From Ectobacillus panaciterrae DSM 19096 (lineage in GTDB: Bacteria > Bacillota > Bacilli > Bacillales > Bacillaceae_G): a stretch of DNA of 64,000 nucleotides. The stretch covers positions 1 to 64,000 of the forward strand of contig NZ_AUMR01000011.1 in assembly GCF_000430785.1 (NCBI RefSeq). The letters run 5' to 3'. The position numbers and the translations under genes were made by a program. The notes below the pieces were generated by a model. That model did not search any database, was not told the origin of the DNA, and saw nothing but the letters and a program-made list of their open reading frames with translations. Shown one piece after another: positions 15,165 through 22,725 of this stretch; within the stretch, counting starts at the first letter, position 1, and every line of letters begins with the position of its first letter.

Positions 15165-15268
15165 ACTCTTTGTACTCTTTGTACTCTTTGTACTCTTTGT
15201 ACTCTTTGTACTCTTTGTACTCTTTGTACTCTTTGTACTCTTTGTACTCTTTGTACTCTTTGTACTCT
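15165..15268. repeat. 9-bp tandem array (ACTCTTTGT), about 11.5 units
   Basis: The unit ACTCTTTGT (TTTGTACTC in another phase) repeats without error from 15165 to 15268. The array is intergenic, about 115 bp upstream of patA. Such perfect short arrays change length readily, so this is a candidate VNTR locus. Confidence 0.95.
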
Positions 15269-20063: not shown

Positions 20064-20221
20064 CTTACATAATCCATTAGGCATTTTCATTTCCGCTCCA
20101 TCTATCATACCAGTACAAAAAACCAGCGTTTGTACTAGTTCATTTGCCCAAACTCCTTTGTCCCAGCGTGCATAAAGTATGGTGTAACCATATTGAGGAG
20201 ATGGAAAAAGGAGAGGTCATT

Positions 20222-21040
20222 TTGGCTAGAAACAATAGAAATAATAATTTGGCAAATGCTTTGGCTTCGGCTAGGCGCAACAGAAATAATAATTTGGCAA
20301 ATGCTTTGGCTTCGGCTAGGCGCAACAGAAACAATAATTTAGCAAATGCTTTAGCTTCGGTTAGGCGCAACAGAAATAATAATTTAGCAAATGTTTTAGG
20401 GCAAAGTTTCATTGGTGAAGTGATGGATAATAATACTGCACGCAGCAATGATAACACTAATAATAACAATTCAAGCACTGATAATAACAATTCAAGCACT
20501 GGCGGTGGTGCTGGCGATGGCGCCGGCGGTGACGCTCGCGGTGGTGCCGGCGGTGGTGCTGGCGATGGTGCCGGCGGTGACGCTCGCGGTGGTGCCGGCG
20601 GTGACGCTCGCGGTGGTGCCGGCGGTGGTGCTGGCGATGGTGCCGGCGGTGACGCTCGCGGTGGTGCCGGCGGTGACGCTCGCGGTGGTGCCGGCGGTGA
20701 CGCTCGCGGTGGTGCCGGCGGTGACGCTCGCGGTGGTGCCGGCGGTGGTGCTGGCGATGGTGCCGGCGGTGACGCTCGCGGTGGTGCTGGCGGTGGTGCT
20801 GGCGGTGCTGGTTCAGAAAATGGAAGAACACATAACCATGCACACATTCAAAACAGTGGTAACTCCAGAGTGAGTTTAAATATCGACTCCGAGGTAGGAA
20901 CAAATCAAGATCAAGTGGCAACTACCGCATCAAATGCGAGAACGCGACAAAATGATCCGAACAACGATCTATTGAACACAGAACTGCTCGCTTCGCTGAT
21001 TCCCATGCTTAACAGGATAGTAAGCGACGAGCAGCAATAA
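20222..21040 (+). CDS. Repeat-rich NSGNS-motif protein 1 (Asn/Arg repeats, Gly-rich tract)
   Basis: 272 residues from TTG 20222 (AAAGGAGAGGTCATT upstream); ATG 20201 is in frame but overlaps that site. Order: four 15-residue repeats of the type RRNRNNNLANALASA (about 1-60), an Asn/Ser linker, then about 105 residues of 8-residue Gly-rich units (GDARGGAG and variants), then the conserved tail THNHAHIQNSGNSRVSLNID (about 202-221) and LLNTELLASLIPMLNRIV. The tail is shared with the next gene and its first half with the third. The Gly-rich DNA is far more GC-rich than its surroundings. No signal peptide. Function unknown; low complexity suggests a structural or surface role. Confidence 0.75.
   Translation: MARNNRNNNLANALASARRNRNNNLANALASARRNRNNNLANALASVRRNRNNNLANVLGQSFIGEVMDNNTARSNDNTNNNNSSTDNNNSSTGGGAGDGAGGDARGGAGGGAGDGAGGDARGGAGGDARGGAGGGAGDGAGGDARGGAGGDARGGAGGDARGGAGGDARGGAGGGAGDGAGGDARGGAGGGAGGAGSENGRTHNHAHIQNSGNSRVSLNIDSEVGTNQDQVATTASNARTRQNDPNNDLLNTELLASLIPMLNRIVSDEQQ
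20502..20813 (+). repeat. 24-bp tandem repeats encoding the Gly-rich tract
   Basis: The unit GGTGACGCTCGCGGTGGTGC-CGGC (24 bp) alternates with a 21-bp GGTGCTGGCGATGGTGCCGGC-like variant. All units keep the frame. The unit is stop-free in several frames, which creates long shadow ORFs on both strands. Confidence 0.9.
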
Positions 21041-21153
21041 CAAGGAAGGCTGTTACAAGAAACGACAAGAAGGAAAAAACAAAACCACAATTGCCAGTAC
21101 TGCCACAGGCTACTATATAAAGGTGACTTTTTATCCATAAGGGAGGATCTTAA

Positions 21154-21384
21154 ATGACTAAAAACCATGCACACATTCAAAACAGCGGTAACTCCAGCGT
21201 GAGTTTAAATGCGGACTCCGAAGTACGATCAAATCAAAGTCAAGAGGGAGATGCCGTATCAAATTTGATTGCTGACACAACCACAGCTGCATCACCAGCT
21301 ATGACAAACAATGGACTGTTAAATGAACAATTACTTGCGTCTTTAATTCCGCTGCTTAATAAGTTAGTGAAAAATGATCAATAA
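21154..21384 (+). CDS. NSGNS-motif protein 2
   Basis: 76 residues: MTKNHAHIQNSGNSSVSLNA, then an acidic/Thr-rich spacer and LLNEQLLASLIPLLNKLVKN. It is a compact version of its neighbour, consisting only of the conserved N-motif and the C-terminal helix, with no repeats. AAGGGAGGATCTTAA precedes the ATG. The 110 bp between this gene and the one upstream reappear after this gene (CTGTTACAAGAAA and ACAAAACCACAATTGC), so gene plus spacer were duplicated in tandem. Confidence 0.7.
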   Translation: MTKNHAHIQNSGNSSVSLNADSEVRSNQSQEGDAVSNLIADTTTAASPAMTNNGLLNEQLLASLIPLLNKLVKNDQ

Positions 21385-21497
21385 CAAGAGAAGCTGTTAC
21401 AAGAAAAAGAGCCGGGGAAAAAAACAAAACCACAATTGCTGACAGTTCCATGGGCTACTCTTGTAGCCTTTTTCTTTATAAAAGGGAGGGAGATAGA

Positions 21498-21914
21498 ATG
21501 CGCAACCATGCAAGCATTAAAAACAGCGGAAATTCCAATGTCAACGTGAATGTACAAGTAGATACAAGCTCTTTAGCCTATTCGATGGCCTGCTATTGGC
21601 ATACAAGTGGCATGATCAATGATGAGCAATTCGTGCAAATGATAACAAATTTAAACAGTCTGCTTGGCAAAGGCGATATACCGCTGCCTCCGCTTTTGTC
21701 TAACACTGTTCCTTCACCTAACGCTTCTCCTTCACCTAACGTTTCTCCTTCGCCTAACGCTTCTCCTTCACCTAACGTTTCTCCTTCGCCTAACTCTTCT
21801 CCTTCATCTAACTCTTCTCCTTCATCTAACTCTTCTCCTTCATCTAACTCTTCTCCTTCATCTAACACCATTCGCATAAAAAATGATGTAACGACTTTAC
21901 GAAGATTCATTTAA
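21498..21914 (+). CDS. NSGNS-motif protein 3 with SPSPN repeats
   Basis: 138 residues: MRNHASIKNSGNSNVNVNVQ, a helical part (LAYSMACYWHTSGMINDEQF, NLNSLLGKGDIP), then about nine 6-residue repeats SPSPNA/SPSPNV/SPSSNS (about 73-123) and the end TIRIKNDVTTLRRFI. The first 15 residues match the other two proteins. The 18-bp repeat unit grades from SPSPN to SPSSN, a sign of recent expansion. GGGAGGGAGATAGA precedes the ATG; the frame upstream of 21498 is not used. Function unknown. Confidence 0.7.
   Translation: MRNHASIKNSGNSNVNVNVQVDTSSLAYSMACYWHTSGMINDEQFVQMITNLNSLLGKGDIPLPPLLSNTVPSPNASPSPNVSPSPNASPSPNVSPSPNSSPSSNSSPSSNSSPSSNSSPSSNTIRIKNDVTTLRRFI
21712..21867 (+). repeat. 18-bp tandem repeats (SPSPN-type)
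   Basis: About nine units of CCTTCACCTAACGCTTCT with small changes (GCT/GTT/TCT; CCT/TCT), all in frame. Confidence 0.9.
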
Positions 21915-21935
21915 GAAAACGAGATGGTTTTCTTA
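21912..21935 (+). terminator. Hairpin at the end of the NSGNS cluster
   Basis: TAAGAAAAC and GTTTTCTTA with a 6-nt loop; it overlaps the stop of protein 3 but lacks a clear T-run. Confidence 0.5.
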
Positions 21936-22009
21936 TATGCCGGGACAAAGGTACAAGCAAATTCGTCCCATTTACATACACTGCTATATCCCACGTTCGA
22001 GGTGTTTGT

Positions 22010-22627
22010 ATGACCTATGTAAAAGTATGTGTTTGTATTACTCCTGAAGCGGAAACAAGAGGCAATCGCATCCAGCGGGACTTTGTATTGTCAAAAGAAA
22101 TTTGGCGTCCTATTTCTTTTCAGCTAAACAAAGTAATCCAGCTTTCCGCCTATACCTTTCGTGACCGGGAGATCAGCTACATTACACCGTTTAGAGAACA
22201 GCCGAAAGTGCATAGCTTGCTGCAAAAATGCGCCTCTCTTTCTCCCGAATCCGAAATTTACGTTTGCTATGTGGGCGGTGATTATTTTCAAGAACCTCAT
22301 GTGATTGGCTGTGCTTATTCCCAGCGCTGCAAAGACACATGGAAAGGATTTATCTTATTGACAAACTCTGCCGCCTCCCGTCCTAATATGTATACGCTGG
22401 CTCATGAGCTTGGACATATTCTTCTTACGCGCCGTAAAGACGGCTTCCTTACAAATGCTGATCCCGATTCCCCGCATGGCTCTGTTCACCACCCTGATCC
22501 TTTTAATTTGATGCATGCTGTCGTTCCCACTCCAAAGCACATTCGGCAGCTTGACCGTCTTCTCTCAGCCAATCAGCTTGAAACAGCGCTGCAGAGCCCT
22601 CTTCTCCACAAAAAAAGTAACCTGTAG
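22010..22627 (+). CDS. Metzincin-like zinc metallopeptidase
   Basis: 205 residues. The zinc motif HELGH is at 132-136 (YTLAHELGHILLTRR). A Met-turn-like PFNLMHA follows at 164-170, with His156, His160 or His161 as possible third ligand. The N-terminal half has the strand-helix pattern seen before such peptidases (IQRDFVLSKEIWRPISFQL; ISYITPF; EIYVCYVGG). No signal peptide, so it acts in the cytoplasm, leaves by another route or is released on lysis. GAGGTGTTTGT precedes the ATG. It follows the three NSGNS genes in the same direction and may process one of them; that link is inference. Confidence 0.75.
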   Translation: MTYVKVCVCITPEAETRGNRIQRDFVLSKEIWRPISFQLNKVIQLSAYTFRDREISYITPFREQPKVHSLLQKCASLSPESEIYVCYVGGDYFQEPHVIGCAYSQRCKDTWKGFILLTNSAASRPNMYTLAHELGHILLTRRKDGFLTNADPDSPHGSVHHPDPFNLMHAVVPTPKHIRQLDRLLSANQLETALQSPLLHKKSNL

Positions 22628-22650
22628 AGGCTACTTTTTTTGTGGAGAAG
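22601..22650. terminator. Long bidirectional terminator after the metallopeptidase
   Basis: CTTCTCCACAAAAAAAGTA (22601-22619) is mirrored by TACTTTTTTTGTGGAGAAG (22632-22650). It overlaps the last codons and ends the cluster. Confidence 0.85.
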
Positions 22651-22725
22651 ATTGGGTATATGTAAAATATTTCTCTCTGCTTTCCCATCACATTGTATAT
22701 ACAAAAAAGTAGAATGTACGGGAAA

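Follow-up and report, generated by a model that had tools for sequence, protein, structure and literature searches.

Three consecutive genes of Ectobacillus panaciterrae DSM 19096, here called A, B, and C, are, judged from their sequences, the Ectobacillus form of the conserved sspG-yurS gene pair of Bacilli: A and B encode SspG-type (B-type) proteins, and C encodes a YurS-type (C-type) protein. They lie within the first 64,000 nucleotides (nt) of contig NZ_AUMR01000011.1, the whole of which is called the window below. We consider it probable that this conserved pair encodes late mother-cell proteins of the outer spore layers and that the peptidase gene that follows in the window is not an obligate partner; more tentatively, the C-type protein may anchor the B-type protein through a shared SGNS motif. 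sspG itself is a named and published spore gene, so a preliminary description of the window, which had suspected an undescribed system here, was partly wrong; the interest is in how widely these little-studied spore genes occur and in their pairing. The genes and the repeat arrays within them are as follows (aa, amino acids).

20222–21040, + strand: gene A, encoding an SspG-type (B-type) protein of 272 aa from a TTG start
20233–20397, + strand: 45-nt tandem repeat (15-aa unit) in gene A, 3.7 copies
20501–20807, + strand: 24-nt tandem repeat (8-aa unit) in gene A, 12.8 copies
21154–21384, + strand: gene B, short SspG-type protein of 76 aa, with SGNS motif and helical tail
21498–21914, + strand: gene C, YurS-type protein of 138 aa, with SGNS motif, helical hairpin, and repeat insert
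21710–21866, + strand: 18-nt tandem repeat (SPSPN/SPSSN units) in gene C, 8.7 copies

The motif common to the three genes, reported in the preliminary description, is real, and all three proteins matched family profiles trained without them. Training excluded Ectobacillus, its sister genus G017, and the two loci that most resemble B. subtilis (L121 and L124); the test set was small, and the decoys were the other open reading frames (ORFs) of the window. The C profile detected gene C (E = 1.1e-22) and the YurS frame of B. subtilis (5.2e-23), with the best decoy at 0.45, and scored only 0.0014 on gene B and 0.003 on gene A. The B profile detected SspG (5.1e-10), gene B (2.4e-6), and gene A (7.6e-6), with the best decoy at 1.7. 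We assigned A and B to the SspG type because of their far lower scores with the C profile, the lack of a hairpin, and their position upstream of C.

The tail that A and B had been said to share was confirmed by sequence comparison (61% identity over a 75-residue SGNS-plus-tail segment, E = 5.2e-16), whereas a single-sequence search of C against A and B found the motif stretch alone in common (E = 1.01). The motif had been described as N-terminal, which does not hold for gene A: its domain order is Asn/Arg repeats, Gly-rich repeats, SGNS motif, and helical tail, which places the motif within the C-terminal third. The low-complexity parts of A and C, also noted earlier, are true tandem arrays with units of 45, 24, and 18 nt; every unit length is divisible by three, and the arrays stay in frame. 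The 18-nt array of gene C is an insert, as orthologues in E. antri and in genome G003 are collinear on both flanks and lack the repeat. The two types have the strand-like SGNS motif in common, to which B-types join polar tails prone to repeats and C-types a predicted helical hairpin. The residues D, N, E, Q, R, K, and S make up 59% of B-type and 49% of C-type proteins, compared with 38% of control proteins. The model of gene C contains helices at residues 24–36 and 42–55, with block values of the predicted local distance difference test (pLDDT) of 91–95 over residues 21–50.

In Pfam and NCBIfam scans, no scanned SGNS protein scored over a cut-off, and we saw no curated family model for the C-type; the earlier statement that the proteins resemble no known family is nevertheless partly wrong, since sspG is a named gene. 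Pfam searches with 40 C-type segments gave scattered weak matches at most. The second half of C-type proteins resembles the SHOCT (PF09851) pattern G-x-[IL]-[ST]-x-EEF, and three of the 40 members matched it weakly (best 0.0013), but the other 37 had no match at 0.1, one C-type protein scored 18.2 bits against a cut-off of 27, and gene C had no match. The CotX/CotV coat domain, considered as a relative, received no supporting Pfam match in the family scans; the profiles were not compared directly.

In a B. subtilis record of the plasmid collection, the B-type gene is annotated sspG ('acid-soluble spore protein SspG'), and a C-type frame starts about 60 nt downstream. We take this frame to be yurS and the wider gene order to be yurQ-yurR-sspG-yurS. 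In B. subtilis SRCM103517 (L140:9937-10330), the C-type frame after sspG seems interrupted near its start compared with its relatives. Like the window's B-type proteins, SspG is a short polar protein in which an SGN[AS] motif precedes alternating V/I and a QDQ-rich tail; its gene lies directly upstream of the C-type frame and is expressed late in sporulation. SspG differs in having 48 aa and no long repeats, whereas the window has two tandem genes with a helical LLNxxLLASLIP tail, of which A adds the Asn/Arg and Gly-rich repeats. YurS and gene C share the SGNS motif, an IDTMPIAFA helix, and a second helix with EEF; yurS lies downstream of sspG and is strongly induced late, and gene C differs in its 18-nt repeat insert and TLRRFI end. 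According to published work, sspG expression in B. subtilis is GerE-dependent, SspG rises after 210 min compared with 60–105 min for other acid-soluble spore proteins (PMC8431406), yurS changes 175-fold (15 h/12 h) and is listed next to cotG (PMC10458515), and sspG and yurS share one module with gerE and sigK gene parts (PMC2749860). sspG and yurS are mentioned side by side in two papers, and among the papers searched none joined SGNS, spore coat, and motif.

The pair extends well beyond these two genera. With a 40-row profile, the C-type family was found at E ≤ 1e-5 in 57 of 397 genomes sampled from the order, belonging to 36 of 135 genera, that is, about a quarter; a profile of five C-type proteins matched 67 of the 397 at E ≤ 0.01. 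Among 299 genomes sampled across the class, 11 matched at 1e-3. Five of the 11 do not belong to the order; one match among these five is weak, and two of the five genomes clearly carry the same B-C pair. The loci that we read, with wide flanks, number 45: the window, 40 regions, and four others. In 43 of them one or several B-type genes accompany the C-type gene on the same strand, within 700 nt upstream in 41 and directly downstream in two. Aside from C-type genes (45 loci) and the B-type cluster, seen in 25 loci when counting only ORFs of at least 80 aa, no family was a neighbour in more than five of the 45; an enzyme family resembling sugar-nucleotide epimerases reached five. The three C-type matches in the plasmid collection (Niallia taxi, Priestia filamentosa, and B. 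subtilis) all have the same B-C pair, and one C-type query had no match in phages. The sister genus g2 of the same taxonomic family, which supplies 13 of that family's 19 genomes, had no C-type match at 0.01; its genome G015 contains one at 0.0996, with a stop inside.

Some further loci concern the B-type genes. A second SspG-type locus of the window's own genome (L006:6977-7517, contig C11) adjoins hutP/hutH and has the promoter and TTG start seen in the window; its first gene is frame-broken and lacks the SGNS part, and its second gene is intact. In genome G002, SspG-type genes lie on different contigs (L041, L042), and a large polyketide-synthase-like gene directly follows one pair of them. 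Nine of the 13 g2 genomes contain a 335-aa open frame with a weak match to the tail part of the B-type profile A4 (L082-L087; E 9e-4 to 0.09), which may be chance.

Upstream of gene A lies a promoter and leader that, by alignment, is conserved in E. antri, in G003, and in the second copy on contig C11.

20109–20216, + strand: conserved promoter and leader of gene A, supported by inverted repeats, alignment, and enrichment relative to control genes
20109–20119/20129–20139: inverted repeat in the promoter region of gene A
20129–20135, + strand: TTTGTAC
20143–20149, + strand: TTTGCCC
20157–20163, + strand: TTTGTCC
20171–20179, + strand: CATAAAGTA, sigma-K/E-like -10
20178–20192: small dyad TATGGT-gta-ACCATA in the gene A leader
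20207–20216, + strand: gene A ribosome-binding site AAAGGAGAGG

These elements fit the mother-cell (sigma-E/K) regulon: CATAAAGTA is a -10 of the CATANNNTA type at the proper distance and near a SpoIIID-like box. For the 45 loci and the second copy, 46 clusters in all, we compared the upstream regions with those of 317 other genes of the same loci. TTTGTCC without mismatch occurred at -55 to -90 in 16 of 46 clusters and in none of the control genes, [AC]ATANNNTA at -30 to -60 in 25 clusters compared with 30 controls, and CATANNNTA alone in 14 compared with 16. Both promoter elements at suitable spacing were present in 23 of 46 clusters versus 9 of 317 control genes, and 22 of 25 spacings were 27–28 nt. 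The p-values of this comparison are indicative, because start codons were picked by how well the ribosome-binding site scored and because related genomes do not count as independent. The promoter shared by the clusters resembles the mother-cell sporulation type, which fits the published dependence of sspG on GerE and its late expression; it points to no single sigma factor, because many promoters carry GAATANNNTA instead of CATANNNTA.

A strict form of the promoter pattern gave six sites in four of eight genomes searched, compared with four sites for a reversed-pattern control. Five of the six lie upstream of SspG-type genes; two of these genes were new to the protein searches, and the other three were already known, being matched by sequence or position. 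The stand-alone SspG-type genes L146 and L148 were found by the promoter pattern alone, and the L148 protein has a C-terminal RRDDRD repeat. SpoIIID is present in 379 of the 397 genomes, including all 67 with a C-type match at E ≤ 0.01, and none of the 18 genomes that lack it has a C-type match at this threshold (p = 0.033).

Taken together, these results make it most likely that A, B, and C are late mother-cell proteins of the outer spore layers and not DNA-binding core proteins; we infer their spore location and co-assembly. The earlier suggestion of a repeat-expanding spore or envelope family is borne out by the relationship to SspG and its partner, by the mother-cell-type promoters, and by variation found mainly in the low-complexity parts. 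The proteins would be synthesized late by the mother cell and then deposited in the outer spore layers. The SGNS motif common to both types suggests that B- and C-type proteins meet through it. The weakest steps of our model are that C-type subunits might oligomerize via the helical hairpin and that the SGNS strand common to both types might let them hold B-type subunits, with the hydrophilic B-type tails displayed on the spore as a hydrated brush. The length of these tails may drift freely through in-frame repeat expansion. More speculatively, and less likely than not, SspG and YurS could form a widespread two-protein co-polymer of the spore surface of Bacilli, misfiled as a core protein and a protein of unknown function: mother-cell-made and held by SGNS strands, with B as repeat-expanding hydrophilic brush and C as oligomerizing anchor, and with a promoter characteristic enough to reveal unseen members.

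Several observations weigh against this interpretation. The B profile does not separate the types, as with this profile gene C (3.2e-7) and the B. subtilis YurS frame (2.1e-7) both outrank gene B; that it finds C-types too indicates that the two types are close cousins via the SGNS part. Two of the 45 C-type loci have no nearby B-type neighbour. The SGNS segment was modelled without regular structure (block pLDDT 55–68), so that the proposed strand rests on the alternating sequence pattern. The incomplete gene table of the B. subtilis record lists no gene at the C-type frame that we take to be yurS. At the protein level, the sole label for SspG and YurS is 'acid-soluble spore protein', and the papers searched yielded no localization or structure data for either. 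As for the promoter, GAATANNNTA occurs in 12 of 46 promoters compared with 14 of 46 for CATANNNTA; the latter we take to be the sigma-K -10, and TTTGTCCAT to be the SpoIIID consensus read on the opposite strand. The window's own TTTGTCC copies are differently spaced, and the strict pattern gave two irrelevant sites in the window's genome (control, one) and none ahead of a family gene. Co-presence of SpoIIID with the 55 strong C-type genomes gave p = 0.064, and such co-presence is weak evidence because 379 of the 397 genomes have SpoIIID.

The window departs from the usual pair in its expanded repeats and in the protease gene alongside, which is usually located elsewhere. As the preliminary description stated, a peptidase with HELGH and NLM motifs is encoded downstream on the same strand.

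22010–22627, + strand: putative zinc peptidase of 205 aa with predicted metzincin-like fold (HELGH 132–136, H160, N166-x-M168)
21943–21983, + strand: separate promoter-like element of the peptidase gene (GGACAAA 21943–21949, CATACACTG 21975–21983)

GGACAAA precedes the peptidase gene in three of four Ectobacillus genomes (the window and two of the three others). CATAYAYTG (Y = C or T) does so in all four, as CATACACTG in the window, CATATATTG in two genomes, and CATATACTG in one; the peptidase is possibly also expressed in the mother cell. The peptidase model (mean pLDDT 89) matched ADAM33 in Foldseek (E = 6e-6) and ADAMTS-5 in VIA (Z = 13.7, root-mean-square deviation 3.0, 172 residues aligned). 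Residues H132, E133, G135, H136, P152, H160, N166, M168, Q189, and S196 are invariant in all nine peptidase sequences. The classical HExxHxxGxxH/D motif is absent, since the third-ligand position (residue 142) is Arg and the conserved third His is H160; the predicted fold and the Met after the zinc motif are those of metzincins. The name metzincin-like, given earlier, thus stands for the predicted fold but not for the motif spacing, and we use it by fold, without placing the peptidase in that family, because that spacing is lacking. Adamalysin/ADAMTS and fragilysin-type metzincins share the predicted fold, HExxH, and the conserved N-x-M after it, but their third His lies six residues past the second, compared with 24 in this peptidase, and sequence identity is 9–17% in the listed VIA rows. 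The score for Peptidase_M78 (PF06114), 21.7 bits, falls narrowly below the cut-off of 22. A search of genome contigs with the peptidase found one named relative, Ectobacillus antri. At E ≤ 1e-5, the peptidase is present in 13 of the 397 order genomes. A distant relative in G017 (L017:8276-8893) occupies the hut-side slot, the place of the second SspG copy (L006) in the window's genome; this possibly reflects an old link or a shared insertion site.

Cleavage of the SGNS proteins by the peptidase, as the preliminary description had proposed, with the metzincin-fold enzyme acting while they assemble or afterwards, would be suggested by the adjacency of the genes in the same direction in three of the four genus genomes, by the mother-cell-like promoter element of the peptidase, and by the hut-side slot in G017. 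The co-occurrence figures point the same way only while Ectobacillus is included: C-type genes (E ≤ 0.01) occur in 5 of 13 peptidase genomes versus 62 of 384 others (p = 0.051), but without the three genus members in 2 of 10 peptidase genomes (p = 0.67). G002 has the peptidase in the same place without neighbouring SGNS genes, and G017 has it on another contig. Of the 67 C-type genomes, 62 have no peptidase at E ≤ 1e-5, an outcome that the preliminary description had itself named in advance as refuting its proposal. As the peptidase is for the most part not linked to these genes, the proposal that it cleaves their products finds no support; we regard this as quite improbable and the peptidase as a separate, independent neighbour gene, not an obligate partner.

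The name of SspG and its database labels suggest instead that the B-type proteins are true minor core small acid-soluble spore proteins (SASPs) that coat DNA, the cluster serving to protect it, and a proteomics table lists 'protection of spore DNA' (PMC7352945). This explanation is unlikely, if slightly less so than processing by the peptidase: the cluster promoter is of the mother-cell type, B-types are regularly partnered with a hairpin protein, many of them have QDQ/E-rich tails (not counted), and, according to published work, sspG depends on GerE, SspG appears late, unlike other SASPs (PMC8431406), and no effect on ultraviolet resistance is reported (PMC1976550). Finally, the similarity could be due to chance or purely to repeats, the genes being low-complexity ORFs without common function; A and C consist largely of simple tandem repeats, and opposite-strand ORFs are present there. 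However, the held-out matches rest on the SGNS parts, which were used in training, an orthologous repeat-free C gene exists in two species, and many genera repeat both the pairing of the genes and the promoter, leaving this possibility very little room.

With deposition of the conserved pair in the outer spore layers as the preferred explanation, a neglected gene pair becomes a testable spore-layer module, and the SASP label may be wrong. Annotators gain a way of naming many small unannotated genes, and the repeat expansions provide a natural series of tail lengths for the study of the spore surface.

Two terminator-like elements accompany the cluster.

21452–21469, + strand: terminator-like hairpin between B and C, just 5' of the C ribosome-binding site, from a consensus scan alone
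22600–22651, no strand assigned: long terminator-like inverted repeat that overlaps the peptidase gene at its 3' end and has a stem containing T/A runs

The scan behind the first element found 10 sites, compared with 7.1 expected. The second corresponds to the long terminator previously placed at the end of the group, and its arms (22600–22623 and 22628–22651) are 96% complementary. Elsewhere in the window, at 15165–15268, where we saw no convincing gene, lies a perfect 9-bp tandem repeat (ACTCTTTGT, 11.6 copies).

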